A stretch of 43,734 nucleotides of DNA. It comes from Chitinophaga pinensis (lineage in GTDB: Bacteria > Bacteroidota > Bacteroidia > NS11-12g > UBA955). The notes beneath the pieces were generated by a model, which searched no databases, was not told where the DNA came from, and saw only the letters and a list, made by a program, of their open reading frames with translations. A program made the translations under genes and the position numbers. The stretch lies in contig CAMBBZ010000003.1 in the NCBI GenBank assembly GCA_945863965.1, positions 1-43,734 of the forward strand, in the 5' to 3' direction. Of this stretch, positions 7,324-19,194 are shown piece after piece. Within the stretch, counting starts at the first letter, position 1. Each line of letters starts with the position of its first letter.

Positions 7324-8121
7324 ATGTTTTTCGTTTTAAGTAAGTTCTTGGGTTTTGCCATAAAGCCCCATATTTGGGTTTTAGCTGCGTTTTTAATCGG
7401 TCTTTTATATCTTTTTCGGGGGAAATCAGATACGGTGTCGCTAATCAAAGCCAAGCGTTGGCTATTGGCGTCGGGTATAATCGCATTCATTACGGGCAAC
7501 CATGCCATCGTGAACGAGCTGTACATGGCATGGGAGGTTCCACCTAGTAAAGAACGCCTTCACACGTCTGATAGCATGCCCAGAACGGCCGTAATTCTAA
7601 GCGGATATTCGCATTACGACGCGGTAAACGATATTTTTAGTATGAATGAGGCGGGTGATCGCTTGGTGGTGGGTATGCAGGGATTATTATTGCATAAATT
7701 TGACCGAATAATTTTAACTGGCGGAAGTTCTTCGGTACTCAAAAAAGTGTACTATGAAGCCGAAGAAGCAGGTAAATTCCTGCAACAAATGGGCTTTGAT
7801 TCATCTACTTTTATTTTGGATAGTGATTCTCGAAACACCTATGAAAACGCAGTCATAACTAAGCGTATTTTAGACAGCTTGGGCATTACAGAGCCCATTT
7901 TGTTAGTCACATCAGCCTCGCACATGTACCGGGCTAAAAAATGCTTTGAGAAAGCCAATGTGAAGTTTCGCGCATATCCGGCGCATCACACCGTAACTCC
8001 TTTACGAAATTACAATTTGGAAGCATGGCTAATTCCCAATCCGGGTTCGATGAACCGCTTGCATGCATTGTTACACGAGTGGGTGGGTATTCTAACTTAT
8101 AAACTTACAGGGAAAATTTAA
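7324..8121 (+). CDS. YdcF family protein (DUF218 / ElyC-SanA-YdcF)
   Basis: AVILSGYSHYDAVN...RIILTGGSS...DSDSRNTYENAVITKRIL...ILLVTSASHMYRAKKCFEK. Confidence 0.92.
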   Translation: MFFVLSKFLGFAIKPHIWVLAAFLIGLLYLFRGKSDTVSLIKAKRWLLASGIIAFITGNHAIVNELYMAWEVPPSKERLHTSDSMPRTAVILSGYSHYDAVNDIFSMNEAGDRLVVGMQGLLLHKFDRIILTGGSSSVLKKVYYEAEEAGKFLQQMGFDSSTFILDSDSRNTYENAVITKRILDSLGITEPILLVTSASHMYRAKKCFEKANVKFRAYPAHHTVTPLRNYNLEAWLIPNPGSMNRLHALLHEWVGILTYKLTGKI

Positions 8122-8220: not shown

Positions 8221-9648
8221 TTAAAACTGCAAATAGTAAAAAGGCAAACTACCCAAACGATTAAATTGGTAAGCGAGTAGTATCGTAATTACCAGTAAAA
8301 AGGCGCTGAACCAATAAGAGCGGGAGGTAAACCAGGCGTGAATGCGCGGGTAAAAATGAGCCAAGCTAAAGTGACCTACAATCCCAATTATGGACATCCA
8401 AAATACACCAATATACAAATCATACCAATCTGGAAATAATGTCCAATCAAAGCCCTCACTCATTTTTTGGACCATAGAATTGGCTTCTTCTATACTTCTT
8501 GATTTAAAATAGATACCACTAAACACTAGGAATCCAAAGGTTAGTAAAATGGAAATAGGCCGGTATATAAAAGCAGGGATGGTATTTCTCCAAGTATTTC
8601 TCCAAGTGCTTGTATAAACATCCCAAATCATACACACGGCATGCATAAGGCCCCAAAGCCAATAATTAGGTGCTGTACCATGCCAAAAACCGCTTAGGGC
8701 AAACACCACAAATACGCTGATACTCGTACCCAAGCGTTTCCAACTGCGTAAGGAATAACTCAAAGGGAAATACACATACGAATTGAACCACTGAGAGAGC
8801 GTGATATGCCAACGCTTCCAATATTCTGTTACGTTTTGTGCAAAAAATGGGAAGTTGAAGTTTTGCGGAATTTGAAAACCTAACCACAATGCCAACCCAA
8901 TCGCAATATCGGTATACCCGCTGAAATCAAAATACAAGGCAAACGTTTGTAATACGCTCGCGATGAAAACCTCCATCGAGGTGAAAAACTCAGCACTTTC
9001 AAAAACACGGTCTACAAAATTGATGGATAAATAATTGCCTATTATGAACTTTTTAATGATTCCAGAGGCAATTAAGAAAGCACCCGCATTAAGTGCGGCA
9101 GAATCGGTGTACCACGTTTTACTTCGTAATTTTTGCAGAAAATCCGAAGCCCCGGCAATAGGCCCTGAAAGCATTAAAGGAAAAAAACTCGCATACGTCC
9201 AATAATGAAAAAGATTGGTTTCGGGCTCTTCGATGGTTTCGTAATAAACATCAAAAACATAGCTCATAGAGCGAAATGCATAAAATGAAACACCAATAAA
9301 ATAGAGGGGAATAGGAAAGTGTATGTCCGATTCCATATCGTTTAAATGCAGCCAATCGCTAAGATGTCGGAAGCCCAATATTAAGCCAACATTGAGGAGT
9401 ACGCTCATCCACATTAAGGCTTTTTTTCGCAAATCCTTGCTTTGGGCATGTATGCCTTTTGCTAGGGCAAAGTCTAAAGTTGAAGCCGCTAACAATAAAA
9501 TTACGGCATACTGTGTGAGCATCGTGAAAAATACCAAATTCCCAATAAGGAGAACTCCTATTTTCCACGAATTAAAGCGGGCAACACTTAGAAATACCAG
9601 ATATAAGGCAAACCAAAAGACGAAAAAAGCGGGAGTGTTGAACGCCAT
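8221..9648 (-). CDS. MBOAT family O-acyltransferase (DltB/PatA/AlgI-like)
   Basis: Polytopic protein with PLMLSGPIAGASDFLQKL, DFSGYTDIAIGLALWLGFQIPQNFNFPFFAQNVTEYWKRWHITLSQW, and SGFWHGTAPNYWLWGLMHAV with the conserved His. Confidence 0.95.
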   Translation of the reverse strand: MAFNTPAFFVFWFALYLVFLSVARFNSWKIGVLLIGNLVFFTMLTQYAVILLLAASTLDFALAKGIHAQSKDLRKKALMWMSVLLNVGLILGFRHLSDWLHLNDMESDIHFPIPLYFIGVSFYAFRSMSYVFDVYYETIEEPETNLFHYWTYASFFPLMLSGPIAGASDFLQKLRSKTWYTDSAALNAGAFLIASGIIKKFIIGNYLSINFVDRVFESAEFFTSMEVFIASVLQTFALYFDFSGYTDIAIGLALWLGFQIPQNFNFPFFAQNVTEYWKRWHITLSQWFNSYVYFPLSYSLRSWKRLGTSISVFVVFALSGFWHGTAPNYWLWGLMHAVCMIWDVYTSTWRNTWRNTIPAFIYRPISILLTFGFLVFSGIYFKSRSIEEANSMVQKMSEGFDWTLFPDWYDLYIGVFWMSIIGIVGHFSLAHFYPRIHAWFTSRSYWFSAFLLVITILLAYQFNRLGSLPFYYLQF

Positions 9649-9651
9649 GTA

Positions 9652-11361
9652 TTATTTAACTTTTAAACGCTTACCTGCACGTATATCACTGCTGCGCATA
9701 TTATTGAGTTGCTTTATTTCAGATACCGACATTCGGTACTTTCGAGCAATACTATATAGAGTTTCTCCCCGTTGAATCGTATGATACTGTGTGGCACTTT
9801 GGTTGCGGGGCGTTCTTTTATTTTTCTTAGGAACGTTTACGTCTACACTATTTACGCTTCTTCTAGCAGGCAATGCTTGAATTTCAAACTCTGTAAATAC
9901 ACGCAGTAATTGTCCTTCACGCAAGGCATACCCTCCGAGGCGATTCCATTCTTTTAATTGAATTACGCTAACGTTATACATTTGAGCGATACCCCAAGCG
10001 GTTTCACCTTTCTTAACTTCGTGTTCGAGCCATTTCTTTTCCTTTCCGAGAAGCTCTTTTGATAATTCTACAGAGTCAAGTTGACTTGGGTCTAAACAAG
10101 GAATAATTATCGACGTTTCTTTATTGGGAGAATTAAAGAAGCGGCGGTACGTGCGGCCGAAGGATTGGTAAATTAAGCTTCCCTTTAATTCATAGCCATC
10201 GCGTGTAAGATGCACGCCATCGCGGTTTGCCAGTTGTACAGACTTCCAAATCTTCATTGATTGATTGCCCCCAGCCACTCGATACCAATCGTAAAAGGCA
10301 ACGTTTTCTGACTTGGCAACATCGGAAATCATCGTTGAAAAAATCGAACAAGCCCGAACGCTGTATCCCCCGCGGTGAATGTCTTGGCTATTGCTTAAAA
10401 TCACCACCGCATCGGGTGCATAGGTTTTGAACATTTCAATTATCGAAACTAAATTGTCTTTGAAACGCTGTTGTTCCATGCCTTTTTGATAGAAATCATT
10501 CGCTCCCACATCTAAAATAATAGCATCGGGCTTTAAGTCTTGTAAATGCTGGGGAAGCTTGTTTTCTCGCATTACGGAATAATGTCCAGCCCCATTAATT
10601 CCTACACTGCTATATAGCAATCCACGGTCTTCAGGCGATTCTATACTAAGTCCATAAATTTCAAATTGCGATTGACCGGAATCCGTTTTTCTCAATTCAA
10701 ACAAATATTCTGAATTACCACGGGGCATATCGACAAACAATTGATCGCTCAATGAATCTATATCCGAATTGAACACGTCAACTTTCACCGTATCTCTTCC
10801 CGAAATTATCCGCAAATCGAAGGAACGGGGACTGCGATCCATCAGAATCCGTAATCGGGTAAATTCTGGACGAATAGCCCCCTCTATAAAGTTTAATTTA
10901 AATGCAGATTGTGGATCATAGGTGCGCGAGGTAATACCGGTTACGCCTAAAGGAAGTTCGGGCAATCGTTCTACGTTTCTAGCATAATACCATTTTCCGG
11001 TATGTCGGGAGCGATAATCGGCGGCTGTGTGCGTTCTAGCTGTGGTGTAGGGGAAAATCATACCCCGACCGGCATGACCAAAGGTACTGCCCAATAATGT
11101 GCGGGTTTCATGGGTGAAAATATCCGCTTGAACGTGAGAGTCGCCAATATGCAATATGTGAACGCGCTTTTTATTGGTTTTTTTGAGCTTGTTCATTAAA
11201 GGGGCAATTACCGATTTTCGATGTGTTTGTATCACATTCACATTAGAATCTATCCAGGGATATTTTCCGTATTCGAATGCCTTCCAGTTCAAGGTTTGAG
11301 CCTTAATTTGGACGGTCAAAACCCCTAAAACCAATGCGATAATCATTCGGATTTCCTTCAT
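9652..11361 (-). CDS. Exported SGNH/GDSL-type hydrolase with two C-terminal LysM domains
   Basis: Signal peptide; block I HILHIGDSHVQAD; block III DAIILDVGANDFY; block V DGVHLTRDGYEL; LysM repeats HEVKKGETAWGIAQMYNVSVIQLKEWN and HTIQRGETLYSIARKYRMSVSEIKQLN. Confidence 0.93.
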   Translation of the reverse strand: MKEIRMIIALVLGVLTVQIKAQTLNWKAFEYGKYPWIDSNVNVIQTHRKSVIAPLMNKLKKTNKKRVHILHIGDSHVQADIFTHETRTLLGSTFGHAGRGMIFPYTTARTHTAADYRSRHTGKWYYARNVERLPELPLGVTGITSRTYDPQSAFKLNFIEGAIRPEFTRLRILMDRSPRSFDLRIISGRDTVKVDVFNSDIDSLSDQLFVDMPRGNSEYLFELRKTDSGQSQFEIYGLSIESPEDRGLLYSSVGINGAGHYSVMRENKLPQHLQDLKPDAIILDVGANDFYQKGMEQQRFKDNLVSIIEMFKTYAPDAVVILSNSQDIHRGGYSVRACSIFSTMISDVAKSENVAFYDWYRVAGGNQSMKIWKSVQLANRDGVHLTRDGYELKGSLIYQSFGRTYRRFFNSPNKETSIIIPCLDPSQLDSVELSKELLGKEKKWLEHEVKKGETAWGIAQMYNVSVIQLKEWNRLGGYALREGQLLRVFTEFEIQALPARRSVNSVDVNVPKKNKRTPRNQSATQYHTIQRGETLYSIARKYRMSVSEIKQLNNMRSSDIRAGKRLKVK

Positions 11362-11363
11362 GC

Positions 11364-12824
11364 TTATTCTCCTGTTCTTAGTCTAAATGCCTCGTAGGCG
11401 TGTAGTAATTCTTTGCTTAACTCACGGGCAAATATCTTTTGGCCCCGCGGACCTAAATGTCCGTCTAAACTCGCTATATGAGATGATCGCCAAGATAAAA
11501 TGCCTCCTTTATCTTTAATCATTTGATAGAAATCAAAATAAGCCATGCCCTGTTCCATCGCCACCTCGCGCAGCCAACGATTTAATATGGGGCAGGAAGC
11601 ATAGCAGGCCAGATCATCTCCTTTTTGATAGCCCATATCACCCGGTCCAATTACTAAAAATGACATATTTGGACAACATGTTCGGTATTTCTTAAAAAGA
11701 GTCCGAAATATATCTTTAACCCATTTTTCGCTTTTCGGGTCTGATTTTAAATACGGTATCATATTGTTTCCGAAATGAAAAATCGCTAATCCTGTTCCTT
11801 GAGCTTTTGCCGTTTGCTGCAATAAGGAACTTGAAATAGCCCGTAAGCCATCACCAGAGTGACCTCTAATGCCAAAATTGTCTAAGTAAACGCCCTTGGA
11901 GGGACCTTCGAAATTCAATCCAAAAATCTTCAATCCGTTGCCTCTACAGCGCAGCTCCACATTGCCGTATAAAGCCGTATCTCCAATTTGATAGGCGTTA
12001 ACACTCCCTTGCCTGAAAACTCTATTAGCGGATTTCCAAAAACTATCCTTCGATTTCCGCCATTCAATAGTGTAGCCCGAATCTGTGGCACATTGGAGGC
12101 TTAGTTGACGATACTTTAATGATTTTAATACCTTAAAACGAATGGTATTCCACTTTCTTGGATTATTATCCTTGGGCATAAACACCAATCCAGAAGGACC
12201 AAAATGCGTTGTTTTTTTGCGGTGTTGGAAGCAGTTGTATTTATTCCAATCCGATTGACTTCCCAATTCTAGTTGGGTATAACTCGCTGGGTTGCTAATA
12301 GGTATATAACCCAAACCATATCCCCCAAAATTTTGTTGCAATTCAGCCCGTAATTCTTTGGTTATGCGATCTCCTTCTACTTGGGAATCCCCATAGTACC
12401 AAATACGGACCGATTGTTTAGCGGCTGCGTTCAATCGCACAAAAAAGGATTCTAGTATGTCTGATTCTGGAGAAAAATACAAATATTTGAGAGACGCATT
12501 CAAACTATCGTACGCGATCTTGGCCGAGTCTCCCAGAGGTATAAGCGATGGCCTCTTTAAAACCGCGTTGGGCTCTAAGGTTACTATTTCATTAACACTT
12601 TCGTTGGTATTTGAATAACCTCGCTGAACTGCCCCCACCGTGTCGATACCCGCAGACTCTTCTTCCAGCAACGCAACATCTAATCCATTTTCCAAGGAAA
12701 AGAAATAGATTCCTTGGTTTTCGAGCCATTTTTTGCTGACCGGTTGGGAAAATGCAAAAACCGAAAGGCCTAATAAAAGGCCTATAATCAGGGTGAAAAC
12801 TATTGGGTGTTTACTATGGGGCAC
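11364..12824 (-). CDS. Exported SGNH-like protein (degenerate DltD/PatB-type companion)
   Basis: N-terminal signal/anchor; RIWYYGDSQVEGDRI block I; LAIFHFGNNMIPYL block III-like; SLDGHLGPRGQKIFA block V-like. Confidence 0.8.
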   Translation of the reverse strand: MPHSKHPIVFTLIIGLLLGLSVFAFSQPVSKKWLENQGIYFFSLENGLDVALLEEESAGIDTVGAVQRGYSNTNESVNEIVTLEPNAVLKRPSLIPLGDSAKIAYDSLNASLKYLYFSPESDILESFFVRLNAAAKQSVRIWYYGDSQVEGDRITKELRAELQQNFGGYGLGYIPISNPASYTQLELGSQSDWNKYNCFQHRKKTTHFGPSGLVFMPKDNNPRKWNTIRFKVLKSLKYRQLSLQCATDSGYTIEWRKSKDSFWKSANRVFRQGSVNAYQIGDTALYGNVELRCRGNGLKIFGLNFEGPSKGVYLDNFGIRGHSGDGLRAISSSLLQQTAKAQGTGLAIFHFGNNMIPYLKSDPKSEKWVKDIFRTLFKKYRTCCPNMSFLVIGPGDMGYQKGDDLACYASCPILNRWLREVAMEQGMAYFDFYQMIKDKGGILSWRSSHIASLDGHLGPRGQKIFARELSKELLHAYEAFRLRTGE

Positions 12825-13062
12825 CTTTTTTAGCCAATATCAAATCCATCATATCCCCAACATTTTTCATTCCGATGAGCTCTTTTAGTTTGAATTTTAC
12901 GTCAAAATGAGCTTCTACATCCGCAATCATGCTGAGATGCGTCAGGGAGTCCCAACCCGAAACCTGTTCGGCATTAAGCGTATCAGAAATTTGAATTTCA
13001 GGATTGCGAAAAACCTTCGCGAAAATGGGGTGCAATTCTTGAGTTATTTGTTCTCTATTCAT
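12814..13062 (-). CDS. Acyl/peptidyl carrier protein (DltC-like)
   Basis: 82 aa with GWDSLTHLSMI phosphopantetheine site and VEAHFDVKFKLKELIGMKNVGDM helix 3/4 pattern. Confidence 0.93.
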   Translation of the reverse strand: MNREQITQELHPIFAKVFRNPEIQISDTLNAEQVSGWDSLTHLSMIADVEAHFDVKFKLKELIGMKNVGDMMDLILAKKGAP

Positions 13063-13690
13063 GATTTTTTAATAATTGTAATTTACAACTGCCACTCAAC
13101 AAAGATAAACGTACAAGTGAGTCGTTGCATTGCCTTTGATTCACAGAAAAACCAATGTATTCATATAACGACACCGCGTTTGTATTGATTTCTAAAACTT
13201 GAATTTCGGCAGGATAACCTTGAAAGGTTGTCAGGGTTTTTTGAATCAATGCTTTCATATACCCCTTTCCTCGGTGTAAGGGATGCGTGAATAGGTGTTC
13301 TAATTGCACATATTGAGATTTGCGTTCGATGGTTACCGATGCTAAAACCTGCAATTTGTCTTTGGCAGTTTCCCATTCTTTTTTGAGGAAAAAATTTAAA
13401 ATCTGCGCTTTTAATAGGTCTGAAGACAAACCCTCAGCGCCTTCAATCCATGCCGATAGTCCCGCCACCGCAACTCCTTCCGCCGCTTCCACCACATACC
13501 AATGATCCAAACACCAAGGTTGACCGGAGATCTCTTCGTCGAAAATCCCTTTTATTATTTGGGAAAATTGCAAAACAGAAACCCCGAAAGTTTCAGAATA
13601 TGGGAAAATCGCACCTCCCGATTTCTCGCTTTCTACGATACAATCTACAATGAAATCTAAATCTTTCGGTTCGGCTTTGCGCAGTATCAT
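13055..13690 (-). CDS. GNAT family N-acyltransferase
   Basis: VQLEHLFTHPLHRGKGYMKALIQ acyl-CoA binding motif and NTNAVSLYEYIGF motif. Confidence 0.85.
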   Translation of the reverse strand: MILRKAEPKDLDFIVDCIVESEKSGGAIFPYSETFGVSVLQFSQIIKGIFDEEISGQPWCLDHWYVVEAAEGVAVAGLSAWIEGAEGLSSDLLKAQILNFFLKKEWETAKDKLQVLASVTIERKSQYVQLEHLFTHPLHRGKGYMKALIQKTLTTFQGYPAEIQVLEINTNAVSLYEYIGFSVNQRQCNDSLVRLSLLSGSCKLQLLKNHE

Positions 13691-13721
13691 AGGGGCTAAT
13701 TGTAATGGATGAAGCGATTTT

Positions 13722-15152
13722 TTAAAAATTTGCGTCGATAATTCCCTTTAAGGCTTTCTTATCCACCTTGCCATTGGCATTCAAGGGAAATGGGTGAACG
13801 GCATGAACCTCCTTGATATGCATGTAATCAGGAAGGTGTTCGTTTACCTGTGAAATGTCAAATGGGATTTTTTCGGTATCAAATACCAAATGAAGTTCCC
13901 AACTATTCATTGTCTCCACAGCTAAACAGCGGTTTAGTATTTCGGGAAGTATTTTGGTACCTGCGAATTCTATTTCGGATAATTCAATGCGGTACCCTTG
14001 GATTTTGATTTGGTCGTCGCTGCGGCCGTGGCAGAAATAATCGGGCTTATCAAAACTTCCAATATCGCCGCTCTTATAAAACCAAATTCCGTCTTTTTCA
14101 AAGAATTTGGAACGCTGTTCTTCATTGGCGTGTAAATACCCTTTGGTTGTTTGGTCGCCGCCCAAACACAATTCTTGGGTATCGTCTAATAAGAGAGAAA
14201 CCGTTTTCATAGGCTTCCCAATACAAACAATACCATTTTTATGTAAGCAATCTGTTAAATCGCGAGGCACCGTGTAACGGGTGCAGTAGATGGTGGCTTC
14301 GGTAGGACCGTATACGTTATCGATTTGCGTTTGAGGACATGCCTTAGCCCAAACGGCAACTTGGGAGATTTTCAAGGCTTCCCCACAAAATTGACTCACT
14401 TTTAAATGTGGCAATTCCAATTCATCTGCATAAGGTGCTAGCATTTCCACGGCCGAGGGTACCATCAAAGCGAAGCTAATATTTTCACTCTCCAAGGTGT
14501 CGTAAAGAGCCAAAGGCTTAACCAATTTTTGACTTGGAACGTAAAAAGAGGCTCCTAATAGTGTCGGAACTCCAAAACTCATTACCGATAGATCGAAGGT
14601 AAGTTCGAACATTTGCAGAAATTTGTCTTGGTCCGTTAAGTCGTATCCCAATTCCCAAAAGCCGTCAAAAAAGGCCTGTAAATTTCCAAAGGTAATCGGC
14701 ACCCCTTTGGGCTTACCCGTGGTTCCGGATGTGAACAAGATGTACGCATTATCCCTGTTTTCTGCCGTGATTAATTTCCACCGAAAGGAATTTACGGATT
14801 GCTTTGTAAGCAGTTCAATTTTTTTTATTTGGGGAAGCCCGATATTTTGGGAATCTAAAACCCTTTTTAGTCCGCTCGCATCTATGATATCCTGCAAGCG
14901 TTGGGTGGGATAATCGGGATTTAAGGGAACGTACGCTTTACCGCACATCCAACAAGCGATTAGGGCCGCATAGGTTTCGAAATCATTTCTTAAAACCACC
15001 CCAATTGAATCCTCACTGTGAGAAATAGAAAGTTGGTAGTCTTGAATATAATTGGAAAGGTCGCCGTAGGTAAAGGTTTTTTGCTCAATTACGCACCAGG
15101 TTTTCTCCGGATACGTGTGTATTTGATTGGCTATTAATTCGGGAAAACGCAT
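13722..15152 (-). CDS. Amino acid adenylation enzyme, DltA-like (AMP-binding)
   Basis: ILFTSGTTGKPKGVPIT, FELTFDLSVMS, FCGEALK, DNVYGPTEATIYCT, FYKSGDIG and NGKVDKKAL (A10 Lys). Confidence 0.92.
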   Translation of the reverse strand: MRFPELIANQIHTYPEKTWCVIEQKTFTYGDLSNYIQDYQLSISHSEDSIGVVLRNDFETYAALIACWMCGKAYVPLNPDYPTQRLQDIIDASGLKRVLDSQNIGLPQIKKIELLTKQSVNSFRWKLITAENRDNAYILFTSGTTGKPKGVPITFGNLQAFFDGFWELGYDLTDQDKFLQMFELTFDLSVMSFGVPTLLGASFYVPSQKLVKPLALYDTLESENISFALMVPSAVEMLAPYADELELPHLKVSQFCGEALKISQVAVWAKACPQTQIDNVYGPTEATIYCTRYTVPRDLTDCLHKNGIVCIGKPMKTVSLLLDDTQELCLGGDQTTKGYLHANEEQRSKFFEKDGIWFYKSGDIGSFDKPDYFCHGRSDDQIKIQGYRIELSEIEFAGTKILPEILNRCLAVETMNSWELHLVFDTEKIPFDISQVNEHLPDYMHIKEVHAVHPFPLNANGKVDKKALKGIIDANF

Positions 15153-15155
15153 CGT

Positions 15156-16598
15156 TTAATTCTTGAGCATTTTATTGACCCATTCGCTAGTGGTTTTTGG
15201 ATCGGCTTTCCCTTTAGAACGTTTCATTACCTCGCCAACAAACATGCCGAGAAGTCCCGTTTTTCCGCTTTTAAATTCGGCTACTTTTTCGGGGAATTCG
15301 CCCAACACTTGTTGTACTAATTCTTCGATAAAGCCGGTATCGCTGCTAGTGGCTAAGTTCAAGCGTTCTACAATTTCTTGGGCCGAAGATTCGGGTGAAT
15401 TGATAAACGCAGGAAATAATTTTTGGCTGGCAATACTGTGATTAATGCTGCCAGATTGAATGAGTTGTATGATTTCGGCAATCTGCGACGCTTTTAAGGG
15501 GAAATCAGCGAGATGCAAGGCGCGTTCGTTTAGAAAACCTCGTATGGTAACGGTTACCCAATTAGACGCGGTTTTATGCGGCACACCCAATTTAACCAAC
15601 TCTTCAAAATAGAAAGCCGATTCTTTATCGTCGATTAAAACAGAGGCATCGTAATCGTTCAATCCGTATTGCTCGGTAAATCGTTGGTATAAGGATTCGG
15701 GTAACTCAGGCATGTTTTCACGCACGCGTTGAATATCAGCATCGGTTACTAGGGTAGGAGGTAAGTCGGGCTCAGGGAAATAACGGTAATCGTTGATGGC
15801 TTCTTTTTTTCTCATCGAAAAGGTAGAACCGTTCAAACCGTTAAAGCCGCGGGTTTCACCCTCCACTTGCCCGCCGTTTTCGATTAAGGCAATTTGGCGT
15901 GTAATTTCAAAGTCTATCGCCCGTTTTACGTTAGAAATAGAATTCATGTTTTTGACTTCTACTTTGGTGCCAAAAACTTTAGAACCAATGGGCATTACAG
16001 AAATATTGGCATCACACCTAAGGCTGCCTTCTTCCATGTTTCCATCACAGATTTCGAGGTAACGAACCAACCGGCGGATTTCAGAAACGAAGGCGTACGC
16101 CTCATCGCCATCCTTGATGTCTGGTTCGCTAACGACTTCAATTAGGGGGGTTCCCGCCCGATTATAATCTACAAGGGTGTCATACAAATCTTGATCGTGC
16201 ATACTTTTGCCCGTATCTTCTTCCATATGAATACGCGTTAAACGTATGGATTTTCGAATACCTTCTTTCGTTTTTATAGGCACTCGGCCACCTACACACA
16301 AAGGGGTATCGAATTGGGTTATTTGGTATCCTTTGGGTAAATCGGCGTAATAATAGTTTTTTCGAGAGTACCGGTTAATTCGAGTTATGTCGCATTGCAG
16401 GGCCAATCCCATTTTTATCGCTTTTTCTATGGCTTGTGCGTTGTGCATGGGCAAGGTACCGGGATGTCCTAAACTAATGGGACTAACGTGGGTATTGGGC
16501 AAGGCACCGTATTCCGTAGAATCGGAAGAAAACGCTTTACTTTGGGTAAGGAGTTGAATATGAATTTCTAATCCAATAACGGCTTCGTAGCTTAACAT
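15156..16598 (-). CDS. gatB: Asp-tRNA(Asn)/Glu-tRNA(Gln) amidotransferase subunit B
   Basis: YEAVIGLEIHIQLLTQSKAFSSDS, HPGTLPMHNAQAIEKAIKMGLAL, RKNYYYADLPKGYQITQ, EEGSLRCDANISV. Confidence 0.98.
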   Translation of the reverse strand: MLSYEAVIGLEIHIQLLTQSKAFSSDSTEYGALPNTHVSPISLGHPGTLPMHNAQAIEKAIKMGLALQCDITRINRYSRKNYYYADLPKGYQITQFDTPLCVGGRVPIKTKEGIRKSIRLTRIHMEEDTGKSMHDQDLYDTLVDYNRAGTPLIEVVSEPDIKDGDEAYAFVSEIRRLVRYLEICDGNMEEGSLRCDANISVMPIGSKVFGTKVEVKNMNSISNVKRAIDFEITRQIALIENGGQVEGETRGFNGLNGSTFSMRKKEAINDYRYFPEPDLPPTLVTDADIQRVRENMPELPESLYQRFTEQYGLNDYDASVLIDDKESAFYFEELVKLGVPHKTASNWVTVTIRGFLNERALHLADFPLKASQIAEIIQLIQSGSINHSIASQKLFPAFINSPESSAQEIVERLNLATSSDTGFIEELVQQVLGEFPEKVAEFKSGKTGLLGMFVGEVMKRSKGKADPKTTSEWVNKMLKN

Positions 16599-17508: not shown

Positions 17509-19194
17509 CTAACGTCGCTTTGTTTTTGCGTCGATACCGCTAACCGGTAATTTATTATATTTTTTCTTTGAGTTTCCTACAGGAGAACCTACGCGAATCA
17601 TCGCACAACGGAATCCTAAATAGGAGGCTGACTGATCTTGATCAAGGAAGCGTCTTGAACCGGCAGTGGCTTGATAAACACGGTCTGTCCAGTTACCTCC
17701 TTTAATTACACGAGCCTTGTCATTAATAAGCGTGGTAATACCATAGTCGTAAGCCAAATCAGGCTCTTCCATACCGGCTTGCATATCCTTGTAACCAATG
17801 TTGTCAGATTGACTGTAGTTGCGGCGACCACCTTCTTTGATAGAGGTTTTAACCACATCTTGGAATTTGATACGACCTAAATCGTCTTTATCGCTCAAAC
17901 CACCGGGTCCGTTAGGATCCATTACTACCTGTTGGAACTTGTTACCACGGAATGGCATAAAGGCATCCATATCTTCTAGAGACAAAGGACGGTATACATC
18001 CATTACCCACTCCGATACGTTACCTTCCATGTTATACAGGCCATATGAATTCGGCCAAAAAGAATGCACATGGGTAGTAATCATACCACCATCGTTCAAA
18101 GGACCACTAGCGATACCTGCGTAATCGCCTTTACCACGCATAACGTTCAAGCGGATTTTACCTCTATCTGCTTCTTTACCATCCTTAATACGAATTGTGT
18201 AATCAGACCATGTATAGATTTTGTTTTGATCGATATTGTCAAATTGGGTTTCTCCAATTGCTGCTTTGCAGGCATACTCCCATTCAGCTTCGGTTGGTAA
18301 ACGGTAGTCAGGTAATAATATACCATCTTCCATTTTAACTTTGAAACGCTTTTGGTCTTTTTTCTTTGCTTTAGTGTAGTTGCGTAAAGGCTTAGTGCCT
18401 AACATATTTCCAGCACCTCTTTTGGTACTAACGGCTCCAGAAATATCGACACCGCTAAAAATACCGTTGTCTTGACCTGATAAATAAGAACGGGTATTAA
18501 AATTATTGAATGGATCGCTGTTAATGGTTTGATTGCCCGCATCGAAATTAATTAAACGCTCACGGTCCAAAATCATTTCGTTTACGCGATCGGTACGCCA
18601 TTTTGCGTATTCATTAGCTTGATGCCAATTTACGCCTACTACAGGATAATCCTGATAAGCAGGGTGGCGGAAGTAGTATTCAACGAAAGGTTCGTTGTAT
18701 CCCAATTTACTTCTCCAGCAATTTGTATCGGGTAATATTTTAGTGTAAAGACCCCCTTCAGATGCGGGATCATTAGGGTCGATTTGAACACCTGCGAATT
18801 GGTGGGTACTTTGCAATCCACTATTATTGGGATTGAAAACACGCTGATACCAATAAACGAAATCACCATATTCATGATTGGTTATTTCGCATTCGTCCAT
18901 ATAAAAGGAATGAATGGTTACCGTACGTTCCACGTTATCGTGGTCATATTTCAAATCGGTTTCGGTATTACCCATGGTAAAAGCACCACCTTCGATTAAT
19001 ACCAAACCAGGACCCGTTTCTTGTCCTTTGTAATTTAGTTTGGCATAACCGCCCCATTTAGGGTCGTTGTGCATTTGTCCGGTGTTTTTGCTTTTGATCC
19101 TTGGACCACGTGGGTCACAAGAGGTGAAAACAACCCCTAAAAGGGCTGCAATCATCAGTGCTTTTGTTGTTTTCATTTTGAAATTCTTCAACAT
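17509..19194 (-). CDS. gldJ: Gliding motility / type IX secretion lipoprotein GldJ (FGE-sulfatase fold)
   Basis: Lipoprotein signal ALLGVVFTSC; GGYAKLNYKGQETGPGLVLIEGGAFTMG; DYRLPTEAEWEYAC; GNVSEWVMDV; RVIKGGNWTDR...YLGFRCAMI; next to PorP-like, porU and porV. Confidence 0.85.
   Translation of the reverse strand: MLKNFKMKTTKALMIAALLGVVFTSCDPRGPRIKSKNTGQMHNDPKWGGYAKLNYKGQETGPGLVLIEGGAFTMGNTETDLKYDHDNVERTVTIHSFYMDECEITNHEYGDFVYWYQRVFNPNNSGLQSTHQFAGVQIDPNDPASEGGLYTKILPDTNCWRSKLGYNEPFVEYYFRHPAYQDYPVVGVNWHQANEYAKWRTDRVNEMILDRERLINFDAGNQTINSDPFNNFNTRSYLSGQDNGIFSGVDISGAVSTKRGAGNMLGTKPLRNYTKAKKKDQKRFKVKMEDGILLPDYRLPTEAEWEYACKAAIGETQFDNIDQNKIYTWSDYTIRIKDGKEADRGKIRLNVMRGKGDYAGIASGPLNDGGMITTHVHSFWPNSYGLYNMEGNVSEWVMDVYRPLSLEDMDAFMPFRGNKFQQVVMDPNGPGGLSDKDDLGRIKFQDVVKTSIKEGGRRNYSQSDNIGYKDMQAGMEEPDLAYDYGITTLINDKARVIKGGNWTDRVYQATAGSRRFLDQDQSASYLGFRCAMIRVGSPVGNSKKKYNKLPVSGIDAKTKRR

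Follow-up and report, generated by a model that had tools for sequence, protein, structure and literature searches.

The systems closest to the locus described here are pathways which combine an MBOAT protein with an SGNH protein. In the Dlt system the donor is a carrier protein and the acyl-shuttle motif FXYXXF is found on a separate protein, DltX; in the other MBOAT-SGNH pathways the motif is fused to the MBOAT and no similar carrier is used (PMC12148441, 2025). One of the latter is PatA/PatB/Ape1 of Neisseria and Campylobacter. PatA acetylates the tyrosine of FXYXXF, PatB can use the acylated peptide, and Ape1 itself is a de-O-acetylase (PMC12148441). The AlmEFG system, which glycinylates lipid A in Vibrio cholerae, resembles the present locus in having a Gram-negative glycine-type adenylation enzyme and a carrier. 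AlmG, however, puts the glycine on an acyl chain of lipid A, and AlmEFG is without MBOAT and SGNH proteins; where AlmEFG has its AlmG-type acyltransferase, our cluster has an MBOAT and two SGNH proteins.

The DNA analysed (the window) is a stretch of 43,734 nucleotides from Chitinophaga pinensis (contig CAMBBZ010000003.1 of assembly GCA_945863965.1), a member of the Bacteroidota, which to our knowledge are without teichoic acids. It carries a six-gene operon uniting parts described hitherto in two separate systems, Dlt and PatA/PatB/Ape1. The operon is Dlt-like in the cytoplasm and Pat-like at the membrane, and a full member of neither. We propose, with a probability of about 0.5, that it is a carrier-fed MBOAT-SGNH acyltransferase operon of the Pat type. 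It would be a hybrid because carrier use in MBOAT-SGNH pathways is limited to Dlt in PMC12148441. A literature search among open-licence papers found no paper on this gene set.

The cluster and its gene products

An earlier note on this DNA had listed six adjacent genes on the minus strand. Their order and coordinates (Table 1) were confirmed when the six open reading frames were annotated with Pfam and NCBIfam profile models. Pfam backs all of them but SGNH2, which is settled by its fold.

Table 1. Genes of the cluster and neighbouring genes in the window
Feature	Position	Strand	Remarks
AMP-binding adenylation enzyme	13722-15152	-	476 aa; Pfam AMP-binding 1.1e-51
GNAT acyltransferase	13055-13690	-	211 aa; Pfam Acetyltransf_7/_1
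Carrier protein	12814-13062	-	82 aa; GWDSL, phosphopantetheine Ser39; PP-binding 4.8e-05
SGNH2	11364-12824	-	486 aa; Ape1 fold by Foldseek; proposed transferase
SGNH-LysM	9652-11361	-	569 aa; LysM x2 2.7e-28, Lipase_GDSL_2 4e-13
MBOAT acyltransferase	8221-9648	-	475 aa; Pfam MBOAT 9.7e-19; H323
gatB, housekeeping neighbour	15156-16598	-	GatB equivalogs above cut-off
GldJ-like lipoprotein gene	17509-19194	-	373 bits, below cut-off 458
ElyC/DUF218-like envelope gene	7324-8121	+	45.8 bits, below cut-off 205; convergent with the cluster

From the adenylation gene to the MBOAT gene the spacings are 31 nt, an 8-nt overlap, an 11-nt overlap, 2 nt and 3 nt. It had been assumed that the unit starts at the adenylation gene. 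The start of the transcription unit probably lies further upstream, with gatB as conserved first gene, because just 3 nt separate the end of gatB from the adenylation gene and relatives, too, have a gatB-like gene ahead of the cluster. As a component of the pathway gatB was rejected, being a housekeeping neighbour. Terminator-like stems are found at 17488-17461 and 8172-8153, in a weak scan (13 sites against 11.5 in shuffles), and the promoter scan is uninformative because its 13 sites are fewer than the 21.7 expected from shuffles. A reading as a defence system was rejected, none of the six genes having a PADLOC match. The ElyC/DUF218-like gene is kept beside the cluster across genera, and in relatives PorP/SprF is found beyond the GldJ-like gene, which is a type IX secretion context.

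The adenylation enzyme matches the amino acid adenylation model (TIGR01733 AA-adenyl-dom, 6.7e-75) and scores far below the cut-offs of the DltA equivalogs, with 237.8 against 476 for PRK04813 and 221 against 559.85 for TIGR01734. LgrA, whose module 2 we take to be a glycine module, is the best of its PDB relatives, and DltA and AlmE (4oxi) come lower in the list. The pocket consists of D187, L188, M191, M230, Q254, C256, V280, I288, Y289 and K462. D187 and K462 occupy the positions of the aspartate and lysine which hold the amino and carboxyl groups in such enzymes. Both are invariant in the homologues, which also keep the ten pocket residues DL(M/V/I)MQCVIYK with little change. The code DLMMQCVIYK has no exact match among the characterised reference codes. 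Judged from the sequence the substrate would be a small alpha-amino acid, with glycine and alanine as the likeliest candidates, and we find it quite probable that the acyl group is an amino acid. In the genome just two PP-binding proteins were found, the carrier of the cluster and one on contig C24 which is presumably the fatty-acid carrier, and therefore the former is probably dedicated to this pathway.

The GNAT has an intact CoA loop (RGKG, R140) with residues invariant in the homologues, and Tyr176 is a likely general acid. Inferring its substrate from the fold was given up, as the predicted model (pLDDT 93.6) matches generic N-acetyltransferases in Foldseek and the profile search gave weak matches.

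The MBOAT protein ends in FYYLQF (F470-F475, with Tyr472), that is, the FXYXXF hexapeptide is fused to its C-terminus as in Pat/Alg-type proteins, and with the conserved His (H323) it has the features of the MBOAT of Pat/Ape1 O-acetylation. When 30 MBOATs were compared, 29 of them complete, the motif tyrosine was present in all 29 and 27 ended in FXYXXF. No separate DltX microprotein with FXYXXF is found within the cluster, and there is no room for one because the intergenic gaps are at most 31 nt. The MBOAT matches DltB structures (3e-20) and scores 164.3 bits against the cut-off of 375 of the DltB equivalog TIGR04091, the carrier-less MBOATs of relatives scoring 141-145. In a tree rooted with AlgI-like proteins the carrier-linked MBOATs of two families, discussed below, form one group with moderate support (90/87), and the carrier-less MBOATs form another (98/95). 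An unrooted grouping was discarded, since three separate groups give high support to any pairing. The second MBOAT of the genome, on contig C116 (L001:778-3328), is part of an AlgI-type set and like ours has a fused motif (FVYFQF); it is followed by a protein without a Pfam match, possibly DltD/AlgJ-like. Unlike the cluster, this set lacks both carrier and adenylation genes on the stretch that was read, and its MBOAT is a separate lineage in the tree.

SGNH2 scores 26.6 bits against the curated Lipase_GDSL_2 cut-off of 32.9, and its family assignment is settled because the predicted fold (pLDDT 82.7) matches Ape1. The Foldseek matches are headed by C. jejuni Ape1 (8gld/8gkd, 1e-22) and Ape1 4k3u (5e-20), and the next fold follows at 3e-5, about 15 orders of magnitude away. 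The catalytic residues S147, N353/N354 and D454-H456 are found in invariant blocks, and the Asp-x-His aligns with Asp-Val-His of C. jejuni Ape1. With its hydrophobic helix at 6-26 SGNH2 is best read as a membrane-anchored periplasmic protein. PatB is also membrane-anchored but is absent from the best 50 fold matches of SGNH2. The SGNH-LysM protein has a profile match to Ape1 4k3u (4.7e-30; residues S75, N288, D381, H384), is exported and carries two C-terminal LysM domains; we propose that it is a peptidoglycan-bound second transferase or an esterase. The earlier note had listed both SGNH proteins as exported; SGNH2 appears to be anchored in the membrane rather than freely exported. The serine, the oxyanion Asn and the Asp-His are kept by both proteins in all six-gene homologues.

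With PatA/PatB/Ape1 the cluster has in common one MBOAT with a fused FXYXXF, two SGNH proteins of which one is membrane-anchored, and an SGNH protein of the Ape1 kind. It differs in that the Pat system is fed by acetyl-CoA and is without adenylation enzyme, carrier and GNAT, and in the LysM domains which the cluster adds.

Occurrence of the gene set in relatives

A search of genome contigs with SGNH2 as query found 11 other contigs. In ten of these all six genes are present in identical order, with the ligase cut by the contig end in two (L003, L010); the eleventh (L004) begins within SGNH2 so that the last three genes alone are visible. None of the 11 contradicts the order. Since the whole gene order recurs in ten other contigs a chance arrangement is excluded, and the check for conserved synteny which the earlier note called for has held. 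Sequence identities lie between about 32% and 88%. The shared context, in most relatives read by sequence resemblance, is porP/sprF, a gldJ-like gene, gatB, the six genes and the convergent ElyC-like gene. One contig (L008) is labelled Sphingomonadales, yet its locus and context are of the Bacteroidota type and the label is probably wrong.

The GNAT is found in 17 of 70 genomes of the family, and 15 of these also have a strong SGNH2 match. In about 17 other genomes the SGNH2 match is weaker and there is no GNAT; none of the 70 scores both types. The three loci of the GNAT-less type which were read (L034, L035, L083) contain SGNH2-SGNH-MBOAT without ligase, GNAT, carrier and LysM.

Elsewhere in the phylum the GNAT is rare, being found in 3 of 396 genomes. 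Two of the three belong to one distant family, in which 12 of 61 genomes have it. The parts are rearranged there: SGNH, carrier and MBOAT genes lie together, with the carrier gene directly between the other two, and ligase and GNAT adjoin, often in several copies, the GNAT in up to four. Ligase and GNAT thus travel together. This is at variance with the GNAT as an incidental extra, since it is paired with the adenylation enzyme in two families far apart. Among the six-gene loci, all those that extend far enough have the GNAT between ligase and carrier, and all those that reach the carrier position have the carrier. By gene context, carrier and adenylation genes are integral to the pathway, which would separate the cluster from the carrier-less acyl-CoA route of Pat/Ape1. 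The earlier view can be maintained in so far as the adenylation enzyme (of amino-acid type), the dedicated carrier, the MBOAT and the SGNH proteins belong to a single unit, and this in bacteria which have no teichoic acids.

Some other loci deviate further. In the distant family four (L055, L075, L077, L078) have an additional second carrier and SDR, LuxE- and LuxC-like genes. A second type of ligase, whose pocket is DF(V/I)MLC(A/T)VFK, occurs in several loci of this family; such clusters may make a different acyl group. In L054 (9216-10934) an FkbH (HAD-IIIC) gene is found amid four GNAT copies, a ligase and a carrier. L080 (5158-10344, genome G005) has an AlgI-like MBOAT, a 430-aa gene, SGNH-LysM and a convergent carrier-GNAT pair, and no ligase gene on the stretch read. 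It is a rearranged or partly dismantled form, and its GNAT-carrier pair beside an AlgI-like MBOAT set shows that the parts are separable.

A proposed pathway and its alternatives

The enzyme type of each part is supported by sequence and predicted structure, and from there we infer every chemical step of the following model, including the amino acid, the N-acylation and the peptidoglycan acceptor. The adenylation enzyme would activate a small alpha-amino acid and load it onto the dedicated carrier. The GNAT would then N-acylate, probably N-acetylate, the carrier-bound aminoacyl group with an acyl-CoA as donor. At the inner membrane the MBOAT would receive the group from the carrier on Tyr472 of its own C-terminal FXYXXF, from which it would pass to the catalytic serine of SGNH2, itself anchored in the membrane. 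Finally SGNH2, either assisted or counteracted by SGNH-LysM, would place O-ester groups on the glycan strands of peptidoglycan, for which the C6-OH of MurNAc is the precedent site. The parts of the model are not equally firm. Carrier-fed acyl transfer through the MBOAT of the cluster we hold to be very likely. The GNAT is most simply read as N-acylating the amino acid on the carrier, with even chances of this being right. Peptidoglycan, one of the acceptors named in the earlier note, is somewhat favoured.

The alternative which survives best retains the transfer chemistry and has LPS, capsule or exopolysaccharide as acceptor; the LysM domains would then just hold the SGNH protein at the wall. 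It has a precedent in AlgI/AlgJ/AlgX acting on alginate, and in a sister family MBOAT-SGNH pairs, judged by eye, adjoin a mannose-1-phosphate guanylyltransferase-like gene. The LysM domains and the Ape1 fold could be signs of an anchor or a de-acylase, with LPS or another polymer as the true acceptor. We nevertheless consider this unlikely: both SGNH proteins are Ape1-like, SGNH2 being far from any other fold in its matches, and a lytic transglycosylase gene adjoins the SGNH2 homologue of the sister family. In one of these loci (L036) the order is gatA, the SLT-LysM lytic transglycosylase and the SGNH2 homologue; L037 and L038 look alike when judged by eye, and L041 is without the middle gene. 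In the distant family L073 and L074 adjoin enolase-type genes nearest to DgcA / Ala-Glu epimerase models, L074 also adjoins an NlpC/P60 gene, and L054 resembles these loci by sequence; such peptidoglycan-turnover genes may be chance neighbours. A recurrent link to GatA/GatB was also observed, gatA preceding the SGNH2 genes of the sister family and gatB the six-gene unit.

The second alternative is a system of the Dlt type, which would put an unmodified, cationic amino acid ester on the envelope while the GNAT has some other task, for instance the acetylation of another amine or of a free amino acid. The earlier note had called the whole cluster Dlt-like. For the adenylation enzyme and the carrier this is correct, and the known products of Dlt and AlmEFG are aminoacyl esters (PMC12930378). 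The amino-acid adenylation enzyme, dedicated carrier, MBOAT and SGNH partner are all shared with Dlt. The export half does not conform: the motif is fused to the MBOAT instead of residing on DltX and Ape1-type SGNH proteins replace DltD. Moreover a GNAT is added, the host lineage is without teichoic acid, and the curated DltA and DltB models remain far below their cut-offs. The position of the GNAT between ligase and carrier, and its travelling with the ligase while otherwise rare, also speak against a separate role for it, and we regard this alternative as rather improbable.

It might also be imagined that two modules are mere neighbours, SGNH-SGNH-MBOAT performing acetyl-CoA-fed O-acetylation of peptidoglycan and the ligase, GNAT and carrier making a separate small metabolite. 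The three-gene set does occur without the activation module, and AMP/GNAT/ACP relatives in the distant family are also found beside LuxE/LuxC/SDR genes. Against this the six genes overlap or nearly do so and are unseparated in ten loci, the carrier gene of the distant family is inserted between SGNH and MBOAT, and the carrier-linked MBOATs group together in the tree, which leaves little room for this explanation.

One of the SGNH proteins could still be an esterase; that both are Ape1-like esterases which remove groups, with transfer by the MBOAT or an unknown partner, is suggested by the de-O-acetylase activity of Ape1 (their closest fold) and is the least credible of these explanations, as known MBOAT pathways of this kind pass the shuttle acyl group to an SGNH protein and the two GDSL_2 SGNH proteins found in the genome are both in the cluster.

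If the preferred model of a carrier-fed Pat-type operon is true, the type of donor (carrier or CoA) would be independent of the type of shuttle (a DltX protein or a motif fused to the MBOAT), and the operon breaks the two-way split in which Dlt has a carrier and DltX and the remaining pathways all use acyl-CoA and have the motif fused (PMC12148441). The MBOAT would then be a carrier-dependent one with a fused shuttle tyrosine, and its product, only tentatively proposed here, would be N-acyl-amino-acid esters, O-linked to the glycan strands of peptidoglycan in Gram-negative Bacteroidota and so far undescribed. The operon would thereby predict a new decoration of the cell envelope in Gram-negatives, and GNAT enzymes would gain a place in envelope acylation.
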